Assembly (NCBI GenBank): GCA_029556545.1
Contig: JAKQEQ010000131.1
Location: 1-61,632, forward strand
Reading direction: 5' to 3'
From: Candidatus Hydrogenedentota bacterium
Lineage (GTDB): Bacteria > Hydrogenedentota > Hydrogenedentia > Hydrogenedentales > JAGMZX01
Length of the DNA: 61,632 nt
The notes under the pieces: model-generated
What the model saw: the letters and a program-made list of their open reading frames with translations, nothing else
The model's database searches: none
What the model was told of the DNA's origin: nothing
Program-made: the position numbers and the translations under genes
Shown here: piece by piece, positions 28,509 to 42,288 of the stretch
Numbering within the stretch: position 1 is the first letter of the stretch
Layout of the letters: every line of letters begins with the position of its first letter

Positions 28509-28543
28509 GTTCCGAACGAGGTATGGCACACAAGGAGACGAGC

Positions 28544-29671
28544 ATGACTTTGAAGTACGCGATCTTCACCGGCGTCTGTTGTGGTGTGGTGATGTCAGGC
28601 ATTTCAACCCTTGGCTTCGCCCAGGAGAAACGTGTCGTGAAGCAAGCTCCGGCGCAATATGCGTCTCAGGCATTCGAGGATCGCGTCCGCGAGGCGGGCG
28701 GGCGCGTTGATTTCGTGTTCGGTGACGAGCGGCCGTTTGCGCAGTGTCACGCCTCGACGATCGTGCAGGCGCCGAGCGGCGAGCTGGTCTGCGCATGGTT
28801 CGGCGGGACCGAGGAGAAGAATCCGGACGTGGGCATCTGGCGATCGCGCTTCAGCGAGGGGGCGTGGTCCGCGCCGGAACGGGCCGCGAAGGTGAATGAA
28901 ACCGCGCATTGGAACCCGGTGCTGTTCCGCGACAAGGAAGGGGTCGTCTATCTCTTCTTCAAGGTGGGGCCGGACACAGACTATTGGCAGACGTATTGGA
29001 TGCGTTCGACGGACGGCGGCGCAACGTGGTCGGAGTCCGCGGAACTCGTGGCGGGCGACAAGGGCGGGCGCGGGCCGGTGAAGAACAAGCCCATCATTCT
29101 CTCGGACGGCGCGTGGCTCGCCCCGGCGTCCATCGAGTACGCGGGATGGCAGCCCTTCGCGGACCGGTCCACGGACGGCGGCGCGACGTGGGAGCGAAGC
29201 GAGTATTTCGCGATCGATAAGACCGACAAGACCTTGCGCGGCGCGGGTGCGATCCAGCCGACGTTCTGGGAATCGGCTCCCGGCACGGTGCATGCCCTGC
29301 TGCGGTCGGGGTCGGGGCGCGTGTGGCGGGCGGACTCGGAAGACGGCGGGAAGACGTGGTCGCCCGTGCGCGCCACGGAGTTGCCGAACAACAACAGCGG
29401 CCTGGACGTGATTCTGCTCGAAGACGGGCGGCTTCTCCTGGTGTACAATCCGGTGGGCATGAACTGGGGCCCGCGGACGCCGCTGACGCTGGCGGTGTCG
29501 CGAGACCATGGGGATACGTGGGAAAACCTGGCGCATCTGGAGGACGACCCCGACCTCAAGAGTGAATACTCGTATCCGAGCATCGTCCGGACCGATACGG
29601 GCGTTGCGATCTCGTACACATGGAACCGCCAGCGCGTGCGCGTATGGCAGATTCCGCTGGCCGCCTTGTAG
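28544..29671 (+). CDS. Secreted sialidase-like (BNR repeat) protein
   Basis: A 375-residue exported six-bladed propeller of the sialidase superfamily. It has a signal peptide (YAIFTGVCCGVVMSGISTLGFAQ) and Asp-box motifs MRSTDGGATWSES, DRSTDGGATWERS, DSEDGGKTWSPV and VSRDHGDTWENL. The opening CHASTIVQAPSGELVCAWFGG and the ending EYSYPSIVRTDTGVAISYTWNRQRVR are typical of the exo-alpha-sialidase-like family common in Planctomycetes and Bacteroidetes. The catalytic Arg triad of true sialidases cannot be confirmed by eye, so the substrate could be another uronic or nonulosonic acid. The ATG at 28544 has AAGGAGAC seven bases upstream, deciding against the in-frame ATG at 28523. Confidence 0.87.
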   Translation: MTLKYAIFTGVCCGVVMSGISTLGFAQEKRVVKQAPAQYASQAFEDRVREAGGRVDFVFGDERPFAQCHASTIVQAPSGELVCAWFGGTEEKNPDVGIWRSRFSEGAWSAPERAAKVNETAHWNPVLFRDKEGVVYLFFKVGPDTDYWQTYWMRSTDGGATWSESAELVAGDKGGRGPVKNKPIILSDGAWLAPASIEYAGWQPFADRSTDGGATWERSEYFAIDKTDKTLRGAGAIQPTFWESAPGTVHALLRSGSGRVWRADSEDGGKTWSPVRATELPNNNSGLDVILLEDGRLLLVYNPVGMNWGPRTPLTLAVSRDHGDTWENLAHLEDDPDLKSEYSYPSIVRTDTGVAISYTWNRQRVRVWQIPLAAL

Positions 29672-33951: not shown

Positions 33952-35178
33952 TTACGACGACTTCTTTCGAGGACGGCTCTTCGGTCTTGCGGGCGGTTCG
34001 GCCTTCGGCGTCTCGGCGGATTCAGCGGCCGGTGCCTTCCTGCGCGCGGGTCGAGACTTGGCGTGCTTCTTCGCGGGTAGCGGCGGTTCCACAACTTGTT
34101 GATCTTCTTGTATCGGCCGCGTCTCTGCTTCCTCGAACGCGACCCGCGCAATCGCCTCCGGCGCTGGTTCCTTCCGTCCTTTGTGCCCCTTAAGTCCTTG
34201 TCCGCTTCCCCAAGATGGCGAACCTGAGTCCGCCACCTCTTCCGTGGCCGCCTCGCCCCAGCGCCCCGGCAAGACGACCGCCACCAGCGCCGCGAGTCCC
34301 CATACGCCGAGGGAAGCCACGCCGAAGCTGCCGGTCCAGGGTTGGAGGTCCCGGGTGAAGAGATAACTCCACATGCTGAGGCCGCCGCCGTGCATCTGGC
34401 CCAGGAACCCGCCCAACACGACGGCCGTCAATCCCGCGCTCCGGTTTCGCCGCCAGATTTCTCCGAGAATGATGGACAGGAAGACGCTCATGCACAGAAA
34501 TCGCAGGAAGAACGAGCGCCCCTCGGCAAAGCGGCGTCCCTCGGGCCCGAATTCGACAAACCAATCGAGAATGACCGGGAAGAACCAGAGGCCCCAAAGC
34601 AGGCCGATCACGACGTAGGAAAACACGCGGCCCATGGGGAGCAGTCGTGGAAGGAGAAAGCCGCGCCAGCCCTTCTCACCGCCAAGCACCACCAGCGCAT
34701 AGACCGTGCCGCCCAGGACGATAGTCAGCAGAAACCCCATAACCAGGACCGTCGTCGTTACGCCGACGGAGGGTTGATCCAGCGTCTGCCCCAATTGCTC
34801 CATGTTGGCCCGCAGTTCATTGAATAGCTTGCCCAGCGTCCAGTCCGGCCTGATTTCCTCGTTCGAAAACGCGGGCGTCACGTACACGAGCGCCGTGTAG
34901 GACGCGACGAAGACCACGGGCGCGAGGAGGGCGGCGGGAAGAAAGATGCCCCACGTCATCGGCTTCGGGGGATCGATTGACGGCGCGGCCGCAGGCGCTG
35001 AGCGCAGCGCCATCCGCGCGGCTATCCACGGCAGGTAGAACAGCGCGATGAGCACGACCATGCCGAAGAACCCCAAGTCGCGCAGCGAGATGAAGTTGAA
35101 GAAGAACAACGCGCCTTGCAGAACCCAGCCAACGCCGAAGACAATGAGCAAGAATTTCCCGATACCTTTCGCGTCCAT
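33952..35178 (-). CDS. CPBP/Abi-like membrane protein with degenerate protease motifs
   Basis: A 408-residue integral membrane protein with about eight hydrophobic helices (GKFLLIVFGVGWVLQGALFFF onward) and a long basic Pro/Ala/Lys-rich C-terminal tail (AKSRPARRKAPAAES, SRPRKKSS). The stretch GGEKGWRGFLLPRL aligns with the EExGWRGFLLPRL motif of CPBP (Abi/Rce1-type) intramembrane proteases. The first Glu is Gly here, and the next motif reads LLWGLWFFPV where proteases have WHxP, so the catalytic His is missing. GQMHGGG may stand for the last His motif. It is therefore probably a non-proteolytic relative. The ATG at 35178 has AAGGAGT five bases upstream, ruling out the longer frame. Confidence 0.7.
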   Translation of the reverse strand: MDAKGIGKFLLIVFGVGWVLQGALFFFNFISLRDLGFFGMVVLIALFYLPWIAARMALRSAPAAAPSIDPPKPMTWGIFLPAALLAPVVFVASYTALVYVTPAFSNEEIRPDWTLGKLFNELRANMEQLGQTLDQPSVGVTTTVLVMGFLLTIVLGGTVYALVVLGGEKGWRGFLLPRLLPMGRVFSYVVIGLLWGLWFFPVILDWFVEFGPEGRRFAEGRSFFLRFLCMSVFLSIILGEIWRRNRSAGLTAVVLGGFLGQMHGGGLSMWSYLFTRDLQPWTGSFGVASLGVWGLAALVAVVLPGRWGEAATEEVADSGSPSWGSGQGLKGHKGRKEPAPEAIARVAFEEAETRPIQEDQQVVEPPLPAKKHAKSRPARRKAPAAESAETPKAEPPARPKSRPRKKSS

Positions 35179-35332: not shown

Positions 35333-38300
35333 CTACTCGATTCTCTGGTAAATAACGCGGTTATTGGCGGAAAGTTTGACAACCACCCCGTCGGCGGCGG
35401 CTTCCGCCGGGCAACGAAACAGGACGTCCTGCTGCTGGAACGGCCCGACGGACACGCTCGCTCGCCGCGGCTCGACGGTACTAACCCCCGTTCCCCAATA
35501 CGCGGGCGCGGCGATAACATCCACGTATCCCCGCGCGGGAAGGCCGGTCTTGTTGCGGACGGTCACGCGCAACTGGTTTTCCGAACGCCGCGCGTCGCAT
35601 TCGATCCGGTCCGGCGACTCGATCAGTGTGTCTCGGTACGTCACGCCGTCGATCTCCGTCCACGCGGCGACGCCGCCCGTGCCCGCGCTGTCTTTCTCGC
35701 GCAATAGCATCAACTCGTGGGCCGCATGGTCGCGCGGTCCCAGACCGTAGTACACCTGTCCCGGAACAGCCATCCAGCCGTCCGACACGGTGAGATAGAC
35801 CACGCCTTCGACGGTCTTGTCGCCCGCGAGATTGGCGACGTGGAGTCGGATCGGCGCGTCGGCATTGCCGAGGTCGCCGCGAAGAGTCAGCGCGACGCGG
35901 TTGGCGTGCACGGGGGCGGCGCCCGCGTTATGCGCCCAATAGCGGGCGTCCACGGAGCCGGACGCGGCAGCACGGGGCGCGAGATTTTCCGGGTCGCCGC
36001 GTCCAAAGCGCGCTTGCGGCAACAACCAAAAGCTTTCTATCGCGAACGGGCCGGTTTCGAAAGGCAGCACACTTTCCGCCGGGGTCAGCGGTTCAGCGAG
36101 ACTGTCCAGGGGCGTGGCGCGTTGGGCTTGCCGCAAGGGAGCGAACAGGCGGAGACTGCCCCGCCAAGGGCGTCCTGTTGCTTCGAAGCCGCGGACGATA
36201 ACGCCGTCGCGCGGGTGTGGCGCGCGTTGCTCGAAAGCCGCGGCGGCGTATCCGGCGGGCTTGAATGCCGTGACCACGAAGTCGTCATTGCTTACCTCGC
36301 AGAAGCTCAATCGCGCGGGCATGCGTCCTGGGCGAATCGCGCCTTCGACGGCGACCAGCGGCTCGTTGAACGCTTGCGCGGCGAGCGCGGGCGAGGCCTC
36401 GCGCCACGTCGATTCGAGCGGCAGCAGCGCGTAGCGAAACGTCAGCGCGCGCGGTTGCGGGCCGTGTTGTGGCCGGTCTCCTGACCGCGCCACCGGCCCG
36501 ACCGAAGGTCTCCACCCCTCTTCCGCGTCGTCGAGCGCGCTATCATGCGCGAGTAGCACGGCCAGCGTCCCGTCGGCTTCGAGGCTGCACAGGCGCGCGC
36601 CCTGAAAGAGCGCCGCCAGTCCGCCATCTTCTCGTCTCGGGACGCCTTCGCCCGCGTGGGCCGCCTCTGGCAGGGCCAACACGCCCCGGGCCAGCACGGA
36701 TTCCGCAGCGTCGCGCGCGAAGTTGGCGGTATGGTTCGGTGCGCCGCCGCCCAGCACGAGCGTGGGCGTCGGGGGAAAGCCCGGGGGCGTGTCGGTGCCG
36801 TAAAGGAGCGCGGCGGCCCCTTGCGTGAAGCGCTCGGCAAGCGCGGTGCGCGTGTTTTCCGGCAGCCGATCGAACAAGCGCCGCACGAGCGCGTTCTGGT
36901 CCGGTCCGCCGATGGCGATGTACATGCCCGCCCCGTGCGCGAGATCGTCGTTCAACCGGGCGAATTCCGTCGAGTCCGTCCACAACCCGGAAGGCGCGCG
37001 GGGCGCATCGGGGGTCATGGACGCGGGTATGCCCCGGCGAACGAGCGCGCGCTGCACCACGCGCGCCGCTTGTTCGAGGGCCGGGTCGTCGCCGTAGACG
37101 ATGCTTGCGGGGAGCATGGGAACACCGCCGTCCTGACCGATTTGGATATGGTCGCCAGGCGAGACGGCAACCCAGCGCCACGCGGGCGCGAGGGCCGTCC
37201 CCGAGGGATTGTCCAACCCGGCGGTCGTGAAATCGAGGTTGCCCGGACTGCGCCGCCCGACGACGGCTCCAAACCGTTCCCCAAATACGGGGACGCGCCC
37301 CGCGCCGCCTGCCGCGAAGGTGAGCGCGAGCATTCGGCCTTCGAGGTCCACCCCCTCGAAGGCGGTCTCACAGTCGATGCGGGCTACGTCGCGGTACAGC
37401 GTCATGCGCCGCACGACCTTGCCGCCGCGGAAGGGGGTCGTCACGGTAAGCTGCTGTATGTCGTCCACGACGACCGTCTCGACGGACTCGGGCGTCGCGG
37501 TGGCGTATTGCTTTTCGCCTGTGGTCCAGCACTCGCGGCCGCCGTCGGTCCGGGCGGGGTCCTCCCGCAGCGCGGCGATATGGTTCAGCAGACCGGGCGC
37601 GAATTCCTTACCTGAACGCTTGTCCACGAGACTGCGCACCGCGCCCGTGGCCGGATCGAGCGCGAGGAGCCATTTCTCATTCTCGATTTGCGGGTCCTTG
37701 CGGCGGGACGGCGCGGGGCTGCCGGCGGCGGTCATGTAGTACACGGCGTAACCGAGGGCCGGAACGTCGCGGGCGACAAAGCGCGCCCTGCCGCTCATTT
37801 CCGCGGCGCTGAGCGGGCGGAGATGGTCTACCAGCACGGGGAGCGTGTCCCCGCGCTCGTTCACGATGCGGACGCCGCCCGCGCGCGGCCACCGGAGTTC
37901 GATTTCGCATACGTCAGTACGCGGGCGGGCCGTGGCGTTGAACACGAGAACGGCGCGCGCGTCGGGTACGTTCCTTGGCGCGTTCGCGAGGGTGTCCGCC
38001 TGTCGCGCGAGATAATCGAGCGCGTTTTGCATGATTTCCTCGGCGGTCTCCGCCGCTTCGCGCAGTCCGGCCAGCATATCGACGCGGGCGCGACCGGAAC
38101 GCGCGAGCGTCAGGTACTCGGGGGCGCTCCAGAAGAGGAGTTGTCTCCATGCAAGATCAAGCGCGATTTCGGGATAGTCCGCGCCCGCCAAGGCCGCGCA
38201 CGCGGCGATCTTCTCCGCCTGAAGCAGCGTGCGTTCGACATCCGCGAACGCCTGCTTGAGTTCGGGCTGCGCCATGACTTCGCCGGGACGGCTCCGAGTA

Positions 38301-40123
38301 AGCAGCCGCGCCGACTCGGGCAGGCGCGCTGCCGCCTCCTGGTGCATAGTGCGGAGTTCCTCGAAGAAGGCGTGCGGCCCCGAGCCCGTGACCAGTACGG
38401 CGGGCACGCTGTGCTTCAGCGCGGCGCAATTTCCCAAATAGAACGGCTCCGGCGGCGGGATGACGCTCTCGATGACGAGCAGGTCGCTCGGGATGCCTTG
38501 ATCGAGCAGTTCCGCCCGTTGCAGCGAGATCGCTTCGCGCAACGACTCCAGGGTAGGCGGCCCCGGCCCGCGTCGCTTGTGGCGGTGCGGAAGCGTCTCG
38601 CCGTCGAGCGCGAGGTGCTGAAAAGCGGGGGGGAGTCCCGGAACATTCAAACTGCTCACTAGACCGGGCACGCCGGCGCGGCGCAACAGTTGCGGCGTCT
38701 GCGGCGCCACGGCGGGCGCATTCCAGGCGAAGTGGGTCTGGGATGTGTCGTCGAAGGCGGCGCGCGCCCCGAGCATGCCATACGCCAGATTGCGGACCAA
38801 TGTCTCGCCGTCCACGAGGCGTTCGTCCGGCGCGGCAAAGCCGGCGCGCGCGGCGCAGAGCCCCGTCCGGGCGGCGTTGCGAATCGTCGGCCACACTTCG
38901 GGCGCGGCGGCAAGCGCGGCGGTCCATCGCCACCCCTCGCCAAGATCGAATCCGTAGTCCGGCTCCTGGTCGATGAACGCGCCCTGCCGCCGGATCGCGG
39001 CGACGTACGCTTCGGTTTCCGCACTCTGGTCGAGCGATTCGGCCTGCGCGCGCTGTGCGCCGGTGACCACATACACCCTGCCACTTTGGGCAGGGTGCCG
39101 CACCATCACCGGCGCGGTGAATGTGGCGCTTGCCTCTTGGGTAGATAGCGTGACCTTCACCGCGACGGCGTCGCCCGTTTTCACGCCGTCGACTGGGGTA
39201 TCCAGCCGGACCTGCTGTTCCGTATCGCCCGGAAACGGTGGGACCGTGGCGGTCGATGCACTCTGGCCGGCGATTTCCGCCGTCACGCGGATGGGCGGGG
39301 AGGGCAGGCCCGTCGGATTGAACAATGTCACGAAGATGTCCTGGCGCGGCCCGGCGGCGCCGCCCGAGAACGTGCCCGGCGAATCGATGCGCGGGACATA
39401 CGTGATGTTGCCCAGACGCTCGACGGGCGCTAATTGCAGGGCGATCTCGAACCCGCTCTTGCCTTGCAGCAGCGTCCGGTTGCGGAAGACCTCGCGGCGC
39501 AGTGTCTGCACGCCGACATCTGCCGCGGCGGCGAGGGTCTCGTAGGCGGCGCCGGGGACCTGGAGCACTATCAGGTTCATGCCCGCGCGGAACGCGGCCA
39601 CGAAACGGTCCGCGCCGATCAGGGACAACGGCGCGGCGGTAATGTCCCGCAGCCGAAATCCGTTGAGCCACACGCGCGCGCCCAGAGGCGTGTGCAGGTT
39701 CACGTAGACTAATCGTTCCCGGTCGCTCTCGGCGTAGAACGCGGCATACGACACGCCGTCCGCCGCGTCCGGGAAGAACGGCGCGAGGTCCAGCGAAGCG
39801 TCCGCCGCGCCCGCGCGCTGCCAGACGGCCTTGCCGTCGTCCGTCTTGACTTCGAGCAGGTGGCGAGGGCGCGTCCGCGCAATGCCGCCGAGCGGCGCCA
39901 TGTAGTCGCGGTTGCCCAGCGCGGGCGCGCCGCGTCGTAGCGCCCCGGCGATGCCGCCCTCGACGTCGGGCCGAAACGGGCCGCAGACAAGCCAATGGGC
40001 GACCGAGCCGCGTTCGAGAATGTCGCTTAGCGCCTCCTGCGCTTCCGCGTTCGGCGGCGTCGCGAAGATCGCCACGAGAACGATCGTCAATAGAGCCATG
40101 ATTTTGTGGAAGTGCGTAGCCAT
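35333..40123 (-). CDS. Very large secreted GH38-like protein, catalytic motifs missing
   Basis: A 1596-residue exported protein. The signal peptide is IMALLTIVLVAIFATPPNAEA. After a sandwich domain with jelly-roll features (residues about 30-330) comes a GH38 alpha-mannosidase-like region (about 340-780), recognisable by FDLGEGWRWTAALAA, AAPDERLVDGETLVRNLAYG and TPQLLRRAGVPG, then GH38 C-terminal-like domains (VLVFNATARPRTDVCEIEL, NEKWLLALDPATGAVRSLVD). The HxD metal motif that starts active GH38 domains is absent, and the nucleophile motif (W-x-P-D-S-F in the active paralogue at 47051-49648) reads AWNAPAVAP around Trp467, with no Asp. I infer a pseudoenzyme, perhaps carbohydrate binding. The start at 40123 is chosen for the signal peptide; GTG 40174 is an alternative. 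Confidence 0.75.
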   Translation of the reverse strand: MATHFHKIMALLTIVLVAIFATPPNAEAQEALSDILERGSVAHWLVCGPFRPDVEGGIAGALRRGAPALGNRDYMAPLGGIARTRPRHLLEVKTDDGKAVWQRAGAADASLDLAPFFPDAADGVSYAAFYAESDRERLVYVNLHTPLGARVWLNGFRLRDITAAPLSLIGADRFVAAFRAGMNLIVLQVPGAAYETLAAAADVGVQTLRREVFRNRTLLQGKSGFEIALQLAPVERLGNITYVPRIDSPGTFSGGAAGPRQDIFVTLFNPTGLPSPPIRVTAEIAGQSASTATVPPFPGDTEQQVRLDTPVDGVKTGDAVAVKVTLSTQEASATFTAPVMVRHPAQSGRVYVVTGAQRAQAESLDQSAETEAYVAAIRRQGAFIDQEPDYGFDLGEGWRWTAALAAAPEVWPTIRNAARTGLCAARAGFAAPDERLVDGETLVRNLAYGMLGARAAFDDTSQTHFAWNAPAVAPQTPQLLRRAGVPGLVSSLNVPGLPPAFQHLALDGETLPHRHKRRGPGPPTLESLREAISLQRAELLDQGIPSDLLVIESVIPPPEPFYLGNCAALKHSVPAVLVTGSGPHAFFEELRTMHQEAAARLPESARLLTRSRPGEVMAQPELKQAFADVERTLLQAEKIAACAALAGADYPEIALDLAWRQLLFWSAPEYLTLARSGRARVDMLAGLREAAETAEEIMQNALDYLARQADTLANAPRNVPDARAVLVFNATARPRTDVCEIELRWPRAGGVRIVNERGDTLPVLVDHLRPLSAAEMSGRARFVARDVPALGYAVYYMTAAGSPAPSRRKDPQIENEKWLLALDPATGAVRSLVDKRSGKEFAPGLLNHIAALREDPARTDGGRECWTTGEKQYATATPESVETVVVDDIQQLTVTTPFRGGKVVRRMTLYRDVARIDCETAFEGVDLEGRMLALTFAAGGAGRVPVFGERFGAVVGRRSPGNLDFTTAGLDNPSGTALAPAWRWVAVSPGDHIQIGQDGGVPMLPASIVYGDDPALEQAARVVQRALVRRGIPASMTPDAPRAPSGLWTDSTEFARLNDDLAHGAGMYIAIGGPDQNALVRRLFDRLPENTRTALAERFTQGAAALLYGTDTPPGFPPTPTLVLGGGAPNHTANFARDAAESVLARGVLALPEAAHAGEGVPRREDGGLAALFQGARLCSLEADGTLAVLLAHDSALDDAEEGWRPSVGPVARSGDRPQHGPQPRALTFRYALLPLESTWREASPALAAQAFNEPLVAVEGAIRPGRMPARLSFCEVSNDDFVVTAFKPAGYAAAAFEQRAPHPRDGVIVRGFEATGRPWRGSLRLFAPLRQAQRATPLDSLAEPLTPAESVLPFETGPFAIESFWLLPQARFGRGDPENLAPRAAASGSVDARYWAHNAGAAPVHANRVALTLRGDLGNADAPIRLHVANLAGDKTVEGVVYLTVSDGWMAVPGQVYYGLGPRDHAAHELMLLREKDSAGTGGVAAWTEIDGVTYRDTLIESPDRIECDARRSENQLRVTVRNKTGLPARGYVDVIAAPAYWGTGVSTVEPRRASVSVGPFQQQDVLFRCPAEAAADGVVVKLSANNRVIYQRIE

Positions 40124-40440
40124 GCCTGGATTCGGTTTCTCCCGGTGGAACGTGTCACCGACCGAGACTCGCACAGGAAATCGCGGTCCTCGGTCGCTAC
40201 GGCATTCTTGCGAGCGGCAACGGGGAAGTCAAGCGCTTTCGAAGCGGCATCACGGCTTGGCCTTCCGGCCTCGCGGTGTCATCGTACGCGGCGCGCGCGT
40301 GTGTTTCCGCGCGAAGGAGGTGATATCGCGGGCGTTCTTGACTCCGGCGCGCTTGCGGCTTATCGTGATACGGCATGGCGGCGGCTGGGGAGCCGCGGTG
40401 GCCGCCGCTTCGGGACCATGAACGCGAAAGGGTGTATGCC
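40124..40440. other. Divergent intergenic region
   Basis: 317 bases between the divergent GH38-like and permease genes. It has no supported gene. A promoter for the permease lies at 40338-40366, and AAGGAGGTGATAT at 40314-40326 looks like a Shine-Dalgarno sequence but has no suitable start after it. Confidence 0.6.
40338..40366 (+). promoter_or_regulatory. Sigma-70-like promoter for the permease gene
   Basis: TTGACT (40338-40343), a 17-base spacer and TATCGT (40361-40366). A transcript starting near 40373 would leave no leader for an ATG at 40375, which supports the GTG start at 40441. Confidence 0.5.
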
Positions 40441-42288
40441 GTGTCAAGCGAACGTGAAGTCGGTGTGGTGGATGCGCTAGACAAGCTCTACGAATTCGAG
40501 CGGGAGCCGGTGTCGGAAGACAAGCTCCAACCGGGGCGGTACTTTGCGGGGCTGTTCGCCGGGGAACACGTGGCGGGGACCGAGTTCACCATCGGTGCGC
40601 TCTTCGTGGCCTGGGGCTTCAGCGCCTACGACATTTTCGTGGGGCTTGCCATCGGCAACCTGATGGCTGTGCTGACCTGGACGTTTATCTGCGCGCCCAT
40701 CGCGGTGCGCACGCGACTGACGCTCTACTGGTACCTGCGCAAGGTCGCGGGGCCGGGTACGACGATCATCTACAACATCTGGAACGCGTTTCTGTTCTGT
40801 ATTCTGGCGGGTTGCATGATTACCGTCTCGGCGTCGGCAGTGCGCATTCCGTTCGGCATCCCGCCCAATACCGAGTGGTATCCCACGGATTTCCGCTTCG
40901 TGCTCGTTGTGCTTGGCGTAGGGTCCGTAGTGGTGGTGCTCGCCATTCTGGGCTTCAAGCGGTTGGCGCAGTTCGCCTCGGTCTGTTCGCCGTGGATGGC
41001 GATTATGTTTCTGGCGGGCGGCGTGGTCATGTTGCCGTGGCTCGCCGCGCAGAAACTGGGGGGAGACATTTCCGGCTGGGGCGACTACTGGCGCTTGGCG
41101 AACGAGTACATCTGGATCGGCGTTCGGCCTGACGGGTCGGAGAAAGCGAGTTTCTGGGAGGTCGCGGCGTTCGCCTGGGTCTGCAATCTCGCCATGCACG
41201 GCGGCCTCTCGGATATGGCGCTGTTCCGCTATGCCAAGAGCCACTGGTACGGGCTATACTCCGCCTTCGGCATGTTCATCGGCCATTATTTCGCGTGGAT
41301 ATTCGCCGGCATGATGGGCGCGATTACCGTGCTTATGATTCAGGCGAACGTCGGGTTGCTGCCTCCGTCGGTGATGCGAGACGTGGCCGGGAATATTGAA
41401 TTCAAGAACGAGATCGCCGTGATCGCCCATGAGAAGGCCCTGGCAAGCGGGCAGGAGGCCGAGAGGCCCGCGCCGCGCACGGTAATGGAGGCGCAGATAG
41501 GCGATATCGATCCGGGGGCGATGGCGTTTACCGCGCTCGGGCTCGTCGGGATAATCGCCGTCATCATCGCGGGCTGGACCACGTCTAACCCGACTTTGTA
41601 CCGGGCGGGACTCGCCATGCAGGCCATCACGCCCGGATGGCCGCGCTGGGCGGTAACGGCCGCCGTCGGGGCGATCACGACCATCGTGGCCTGTTTTCCG
41701 TTCGTATTCACGAAGCTGCTCGACTTTGTCGGGCTCTACGGATTGCTGCTGGTGCCCGTGGGCGCCATCGTATTCACCGAGCACTGGATTTTCCCGCGCA
41801 TCGGGCTCACCCAACTCTGGTGCGAGAAGAAGGGACTCTTCATCAGTTGGCCCGCGCTCATCAGTTGGTTCGCGGGACTCGGCTTCGCGCTTGCCCTCAA
41901 CAAGGTTGGCGGTGTCAGCCTGTTCTACCTGTTTATCCCCACGTCGCTGCTTGCCATGGTGCTCTACACCGCATTGGCGTCGGTCATGGGCGCGCGCGAG
42001 AAGTTCCCCGAGGCCGAGGCTGCCGCGGACCGCGCCAAGGCGCGTAGACAACCGGCGGCTCCCGCGTCGCAGGCCGCGCCGCCGGGGGACCTGATGCTGT
42101 GGGTTGTCCGCGCGCTGGCCCTCGGCGCGCTCGCCGTATGCGTCCTGTGGCCCATTTGGATATTCCTGCAAGGGGGCGACGGCTTCGAGGCGCGGTTCCT
42201 GCTGTTCCGCAAGTGGCTCATCGTGCCGACCCTCGTCTATTTCGCCGCCGGCACCGCCTGGGCTGTCAAGCGCGATAAGGCGTCCTGA
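40441..42288 (+). CDS. NCS1/purine-cytosine-permease-like transporter
   Basis: A 615-residue inner-membrane protein with at least twelve hydrophobic segments. It opens with a cytosolic stretch (EFEREPVSEDKLQPGRYFAG), followed by GEHVAGTEFTIGALFVAWGFSAYDIFVGLAIGN in pieces typical of nucleobase:cation symporter-1 and codB-like permeases. Later segments include AFAWVCNLAMHGGLSDMALFRYA, IIAGWTTSNPTLYRAGLAMQ and GLYGLLLVPVGAIVFTEHW. The natural substrate in this lineage is not known; a nucleobase, allantoin or another small solute is possible. I chose GTG 40441 because AAAGGG lies nine bases upstream and the promoter position fits; an ATG at 40375 would add 22 residues. Confidence 0.82.
   Translation: MSSEREVGVVDALDKLYEFEREPVSEDKLQPGRYFAGLFAGEHVAGTEFTIGALFVAWGFSAYDIFVGLAIGNLMAVLTWTFICAPIAVRTRLTLYWYLRKVAGPGTTIIYNIWNAFLFCILAGCMITVSASAVRIPFGIPPNTEWYPTDFRFVLVVLGVGSVVVVLAILGFKRLAQFASVCSPWMAIMFLAGGVVMLPWLAAQKLGGDISGWGDYWRLANEYIWIGVRPDGSEKASFWEVAAFAWVCNLAMHGGLSDMALFRYAKSHWYGLYSAFGMFIGHYFAWIFAGMMGAITVLMIQANVGLLPPSVMRDVAGNIEFKNEIAVIAHEKALASGQEAERPAPRTVMEAQIGDIDPGAMAFTALGLVGIIAVIIAGWTTSNPTLYRAGLAMQAITPGWPRWAVTAAVGAITTIVACFPFVFTKLLDFVGLYGLLLVPVGAIVFTEHWIFPRIGLTQLWCEKKGLFISWPALISWFAGLGFALALNKVGGVSLFYLFIPTSLLAMVLYTALASVMGAREKFPEAEAAADRAKARRQPAAPASQAAPPGDLMLWVVRALALGALAVCVLWPIWIFLQGGDGFEARFLLFRKWLIVPTLVYFAAGTAWAVKRDKAS

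Follow-up and report, generated by a model that had tools for sequence, protein, structure and literature searches.

A probable GH38-fold pseudoenzyme clade of Hydrogenedentota and its genomic neighbours

Genes at the locus and domain layout of P0001

The window, meaning the whole 61,632-nt stretch of DNA analysed here, is contig C122 of a 6.1-Mb genome (G000). On its minus strand, a frame of 1596 codons plus a stop runs from an ATG at 40123 and occupies positions 35333-40123, exactly as the initial annotation had drawn it; a GTG 51 bases upstream offers an alternative start that would give 1613 aa. Judged by the open reading frame, alignment and predicted structure, the product, P0001, is a GH38-fold protein without the GH38 catalytic residues, and we refer to it and its orthologues as clade A. 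Residues 1-28 (40040-40123) form a signal-like hydrophobic start, the only segment above threshold in a simple hydropathy scan, which suggests that P0001 is probably exported. Residues 30-230 (39434-40036) make up an N-terminal domain that shows the highest conservation within clade A in our comparison and that, from its sequence pattern, we take to be a jelly-roll module. Stretches resembling this domain (39434-40036, minus strand) also occur in four otherwise unrelated proteins, where they accompany a DUF4838 (L050), a GH20b domain (L100) or ankyrin repeats and an S41 peptidase (L101 and L102).

The GH38 part of P0001 consists of the barrel (residues 346-600; 38324-39088) and the alpha-mannosidase middle domain (residues 615-715; 37979-38281), both placed by Pfam match and alignment, followed by the C-terminal beta domains (residues 716-1380; 35984-37978), placed by Pfam match and structure. 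Within the beta domains, the model places an alpha/beta insert at about residues 1006-1180 (36584-37108), which is shared with a sister clade described below (clade B) and contains a glycine, G1072, that is invariant in 24/24 rows. A further C-terminal domain covers residues 1381-1596 (35336-35983); a NEW3-like domain (PF10633) was detected at the C terminus of some relatives and is absent from P0001 itself.

A second GH38 protein, P0002 (47051-49648, plus strand), has intact catalytic positions by Pfam match and alignment and served as a comparison protein. Its HxD motif is His54/Asp56, the nucleophile position is Asp168 and the fourth ligand is His371. The initial annotation had described an apparently active GH38 7 kb away with His52, Asp56 and Asp168; the distance (6.9 kb) and both aspartates hold, while the histidine needs correcting, since His52 is the one preceding the HxD His54. 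Directly downstream of P0001 lies a gene for a CPBP/Rce1-like membrane protein in which the first catalytic Glu is missing (33952-35178, minus strand; PF02517 and alignment); its start codon was chosen by us, and the longest frame begins at 35520. Elsewhere in the window are genes for a divergent 637-aa membrane protein with a permease-like reading and no Pfam match at 0.01 (40375-42288, plus strand), a neutral-ceramidase-like protein just after P0002 (49835-51115, plus strand) and a BNR sialidase-like protein (28523-29671, plus strand).

A GH38 fold with a degenerate active site

Pfam, NCBIfam and PDB searches with the single P0001 sequence only hinted at GH38, giving PF01074 at residues 369-487 (E 1.3e-3), PF09261 at 619-705 (E 1.7e-4) and PF07748 at 813-921 (E 7.8e-3), all below the Pfam cut-off. 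A profile built from 13 orthologues matched solved GH38 mannosidases with E 5.7e-20. Structure prediction, which the initial annotation had proposed as a check, was carried out for residues 335-1380 together with 14 orthologues (15 rows; of 16 long relatives, L093, with unknown residues, and L095, which is partial, were excluded) and returned a GH38 fold with a mean pLDDT of 82.7 and a pTM of 0.88. The best 40 Foldseek matches to this model were all GH38 alpha-mannosidases. By structural comparison the best 36 matches were alpha-mannosidases, led by 3lvt (Z 31.3, 745 aligned residues, rmsd 3.0), and the next match had a Z of 16.6. The predicted structure and the profile thus give P0001 the overall fold and domain order of the GH38 family, and the GH38 landmarks reported at first sight are real, being weak in the single sequence and clear with orthologues and structure.

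In Ams1 of S. pombe, the zinc ligands are described as H290, D292, D402 and H615, with D402 and D493 apparently acting as nucleophile and acid/base and D616 likely binding substrate (PMC7609781). In an alignment with the eight other GH38s of the genome, the corresponding H, D, D and H positions of P0001 are Q357 (codon 39053-39055), A359 (39047-39049), N468 (38720-38722) and P668 (38120-38122), these assignments resting on sequence alignment, which is loose in the loops. W467 (38723-38725) lies beside the nucleophile position, and E669 comes after P668. By this alignment P0001 has none of the four zinc ligands, and the nucleophile Asp is replaced by Asn. The alignment therefore bears out the missing HxD motif and nucleophile Asp that had been noted from the sequence, and adds the fourth zinc-ligand His, now Pro668, which the initial annotation did not mention.

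The same positions are degenerate throughout the clade. Among the 19 full-length rows of clade A, the four ligands are retained in 2, 1, 8 and 0, respectively; two ligands, the maximum, are found in 2/19 rows, one in 7/19 and none in 10/19. The nucleophile column holds Asp in 8/19 rows and Glu in 4/19. All four residues are present in each of the five clade B rows examined. The initial annotation had also raised the use of another active site, for which we found no support: the clade A barrel and middle domain contain no conserved His (at least 16/19 rows), and, set against the clade A profile, Ams1 D493 lies in an insertion, where the loop alignments are loose.

We also asked how the rest of the domain had fared. 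Between P0001 residues 346 and 1005, 38 columns carry the same residue in 12 or more of 13 comparison GH38s (five from clade B and eight from the same genome), and 23 of the 38 are retained in at least 13/19 clade A rows. Within this set, the first His survives in 2/19 rows, the HxD Asp in 1/19, the last His in 0/19 and the Asp that follows it in 4/19. G886, R956, N626 and G673 are also lost, along with some columns kept in 4-7/19 rows, so the loss is not limited to the ligands. Clade A also has its own set of near-invariant residues, namely R435 and R514 (both 19/19), D547 and W400 (both 17/19) and W467 (16/19). The nucleophile column falls outside the 38-column set because three other GH38-like proteins of the genome have Phe there; these proteins (L146, L145 and L144, on contigs C42, C151 and C101 of G000) keep HxD and the last His and carry the Phe in a GYTPFGYGQ-like motif.

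Compared with the GH38 alpha-mannosidases of E. faecalis (3lvt/5kbp), S. pyogenes (2wyh) and S. pombe (Ams1, 6lz1), P0001 has the fold in common over residues 335-1380, including the middle domain and many structural residues. It differs in lacking the zinc ligands and the nucleophile Asp and in adding the N-terminal domains, the alpha/beta insert and the C-terminal domain. Overall, loss of the active site in P0001 is well supported by the aligned sequences.

Distribution, descent and selection

Clade A was detected in 28 of the 68 Hydrogenedentota genomes searched (G000-G003, G006, G007, G009, G011, G013-G015, G019-G023, G026, G030-G034, G037, G061 and G063, with short fragments in G036, G044 and G046), several of the members being fragments. 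These genomes represent 9/11 families; none belongs to f5 or f8, for which one genome each was available. Clade B was found in 10/68 genomes (G012, G018, G033, G036, G044, G050, G054, G060, G061 and G067), all in family f4, and the two clades occur together in G033, G036, G044 and G061. The clade B proteins (1557-1605 aa) have the whole architecture of clade A and can be aligned with it over the full length, differing in that all four metal and catalytic residues are kept (5/5).

In a maximum-likelihood tree (32 rows), clade A formed a single group of 19 rows with support 100/100, and the five clade B rows were placed beside it, separate from eight other GH38s, with support 100/99; nine rows have unusual composition, and the fine branching inside clade A is unsure. 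The tree and the residue counts cover full-length members of the two clades and leave aside three of the genome's 12 PF01074 matches (C51, C55 and C167), the frame at C167 reading like another family, presumably GH57. Because sister clade B keeps all four residues, the simplest history would have the metal site lost once, at the base of clade A. The tree alone would also accommodate a gain in clade B; the zinc site is found in other GH38s, which makes loss in clade A far likelier.

An alignment-based scan of a wider contig collection recovered 19 relatives, of which 16 match clade A at length and three share the N-terminal domain only, two of the latter coming from Planctomycetota/Phycisphaerales; a scan of the same collection with P0001 alone found no relative. 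All 19 named records are metagenome-assembled genomes, mostly of Candidatus Hydrogenedentota, and one scan with two peptide patterns did not detect clade A outside Hydrogenedentota. The statement that the protein has lost its catalytic residues thus stands, and the search for orthologues with the same losses, suggested alongside it, extends it to 19 full-length members and to 9/11 families, with an intact sister clade. In the open-access literature listings searched we found no description of a non-catalytic GH38 clade.

Comparison with the G001 orthologue, from the same genus (NG86), gave a dN/dS of 0.18 (0.253/1.375) for the C-terminal part (802 codons) and of 0.21 (0.208/1.006) for the N-terminal part (447 codons), values for which dS exceeds 1 and is near saturation. 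We also observed a shift in where conservation is concentrated. In clade B the peak lies in the barrel (73%) and middle domain (80%), above the N-terminal domain (64%), whereas in clade A it lies in the N-terminal domain, with mean pairwise identities of 50% there, 40% in the barrel and 43% in the middle domain for the 13 closer rows, a figure that drops the six most diverged; over all 19 rows the values are 43%, 31% and 34%. With GH38 homology, loss of catalytic residues and purifying selection combined, P0001 is a pseudoenzyme of GH38 descent.

Neighbouring membrane proteins and a possible role

At the window locus, the gene downstream of P0001 scored 24.0 bits with PF02517 in the genome search (cut-off 22.4), and 4/5 neighbours tested exceeded the cut-off, supporting homology with the CPBP/Rce1 family; the 522-aa frame of the window gene gave no hmmscan match. 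A CPBP-like gene lies directly downstream of clade A in 10/28 genomes (G000, G001, G003, G014, G020, G026, G030, G033, G034 and G037), and the family was found in 32/68 genomes, some matches being weak and some possibly other CPBP proteins. The catalytic residues of MmRce1 are given as E140, E141, H173, H227 and N231 (PMC10811503). Among eight aligned CPBP-like proteins the first catalytic Glu is absent from all and the second present in all. A W-x-x-P segment, which we take to be motif 2, has no His in 8/8, and a His occurs in 1/8 at the column that we take to be motif 3, so that the eight proteins lack the catalytic residue set of an Rce1 protease. Four other CPBP candidates of the genome gave no usable alignment with these proteins, at least one of their frames probably being wrong.

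Upstream of clade A, many genomes encode a polytopic membrane protein (for example L096, 8397-9938), a gene that falls outside the window. Searches against Pfam and PDB profiles gave no useful sequence match, and the family was placed by predicted fold. The L096 model has a low overall pLDDT of 64.9, with most of the membrane part at 70-90, and superimposed on yeast Pmt4 with a Z of 20.1 over 309 residues, followed by Pmt2, oligosaccharyltransferases, ALG12 and ArnT. The best 41 matches were GT-C or GT-C-like and the next had a Z of 5.2; Foldseek gave no match below 0.001, the best being ArnT (E 1.6e-3). The upstream gene is thus predicted, from the model, to encode a GT-C membrane fold like that of Pmt4/Pmt2, OST/PglB, ALG12 and ArnT, the protein O-mannosyltransferases being the closest, from which it differs in lacking a useful sequence match and in the loss of an Asp in the first outer loop in 6/45 sequences. 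This Asp, mostly in PLGRD or PMGRD, is kept by the other 39 of the 45 sequences that could be read, L110 of the window's genome among them, and is missing from L071, L074, L089, L090, L236 and L238, four of them f11 members adjoining clade A. An acidic residue in the first outer loop of GT-C proteins is, we presume, catalytic.

The GT-C-like family is present in 57/68 genomes and lies directly or closely upstream of clade A in 16/28. It is directly upstream in 13 (G001, G003, G006, G011, G013, G014, G019, G022, G026, G030, G031, G034 and G037; in G003 the gene is a fragment located at the end of a contig), and in three more (G007, G033 and G063) it is on the same strand and no more than 2 kb away. 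It lies elsewhere in the genome in G000, where it is on a contig other than that of P0001, and in G002, G009, G015, G020, G021, G036, G044 and G061; in the clade A genomes G023, G032 and G046 it was not detected. The order GT-C, clade A, CPBP is found in eight genomes (G001, G003, G014, G026, G030, G033, G034 and G037), spanning two contigs in G001 and G030. The GT-C gene also occurs in many genomes that lack clade A and therefore does not depend on it; in such genomes we saw no common gene replacing clade A behind it, with crude longest-frame calling. In G064 (C156, 2753-4857) a CPBP-like match comes immediately after a GT-C-like gene with no clade A gene between, an adjacency that is unsure given that gene calling picked the opposite frame there. 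The linkage of clade A to a GT-C-fold gene and a CPBP-like gene is new here.

The catalytic loss is kept across the phylum, often beside a GT-C-like protein, and P0001 therefore probably binds rather than cuts. We favour the explanation that it is a pseudoenzyme with a glycan or glycoprotein as its ligand, acting within an envelope glycosylation module, to which as a whole we assign a probability of roughly 0.55. One part of this reading is much firmer, as P0001 is very probably not a GH38-type glycosidase; because the zinc site and the nucleophile were examined and are absent, it should not be classed with the active GH38 mannosidases. The initial annotation had suggested that the protein may bind rather than cut mannosides, and binding may well be its function; nothing here points to mannoside specifically.

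A plausible history would start from a common ancestor of about 1600 aa, from which clade B kept the zinc site while clade A lost the metal site at its base, became a pseudoenzyme and then came under purifying selection across Hydrogenedentota. A glycan or glycoprotein would be bound at the outer face of the inner membrane by the former barrel cleft, by the conserved N-terminal domain or by the two together, perhaps in a physical complex there. The partners would be the GT-C-fold glycosyltransferase-like protein and the CPBP-fold protein, the latter also without protease residues. Such an arrangement might work somewhat like SpdC-SagB of S. aureus, with the CPBP-fold protein holding a glycan-processing partner in place. 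SpdC, a CPBP-fold protein without protease residues, is described as a scaffold for the glucosaminidase SagB (PMC10581084), and LnsB and APH-1 are likewise discussed as CPBP-fold partners without such residues (PMC7387801). The likeness is that of a CPBP/Rce1-like protein without catalytic residues beside a glycan-related partner; SagB is an active enzyme in a complex, while the partner here is a GH38-fold protein known from gene adjacency. Against such a module stand the second Glu, kept in 8/8 CPBP-like proteins, the His at the motif-3 column in 1/8, the many genomes with the GT-C gene and no clade A, the low confidence of the GT-C model and the location of the GT-C gene on another contig in P0001's own genome. 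That P0001 is the glycan-recognition partner of the GT-C protein in particular is possible, at somewhat less than even odds. We are doubtful of a bolder version, a phylum-wide module of a protein-O-mannosyltransferase-like GT-C protein, a pseudo-mannosidase and a CPBP pseudo-protease, in which the dead mannosidase would read or quality-control surface O-glycosylation.

Other explanations have to be set against glycan or glycoprotein binding. The GH38 part could be a scaffold only, with the N-terminal domain as the functional part and a partner protein rather than a glycan as its target. The higher identity of that domain (50% against 40% for the barrel in the 13 closer rows) and the fusion of similar stretches to DUF4838, GH20b or ankyrin plus S41 in four proteins fit this reading, but the near-invariant R435, R514, W400, W467 and D547 exceed the needs of a bare scaffold, and we think it unlikely. 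It is more improbable still that P0001 remains an enzyme, acting through other acidic residues of a zinc-free barrel or through the alpha/beta insert or another domain. The acidic residue at the nucleophile column in 12/19 rows (Asp in eight, Glu in four) means that weak or different chemistry may persist in the clade, D433, E538 and D547 are conserved in the barrel, and the insert with its invariant G1072 is shared with clade B. However, P0001 itself has Asn at that column, the barrel and middle domain have no conserved His, the acid/base residue of Ams1 aligns within an insertion when set against clade A, and the N-terminal domain is better conserved than the barrel, the opposite of clade B. 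A decaying gene or an assembly error, which the weak single-sequence domain scores might suggest, is hardly credible given that another 18 full-length orthologues have open frames of 1534-1724 aa, that the genome-search rows listed for them show no internal stops and that dN/dS is 0.18-0.21.

GH38 is known as an enzyme family, and clade A represents a clean case of a glycosidase turned non-enzyme; its intact sister clade belongs to the same phylum, and four of the searched genomes contain both. These observations caution against a mannosidase annotation for clade A proteins. The linkage to a GT-C-fold gene and a degenerate CPBP gene provides a testable way into envelope glycosylation in Hydrogenedentota.
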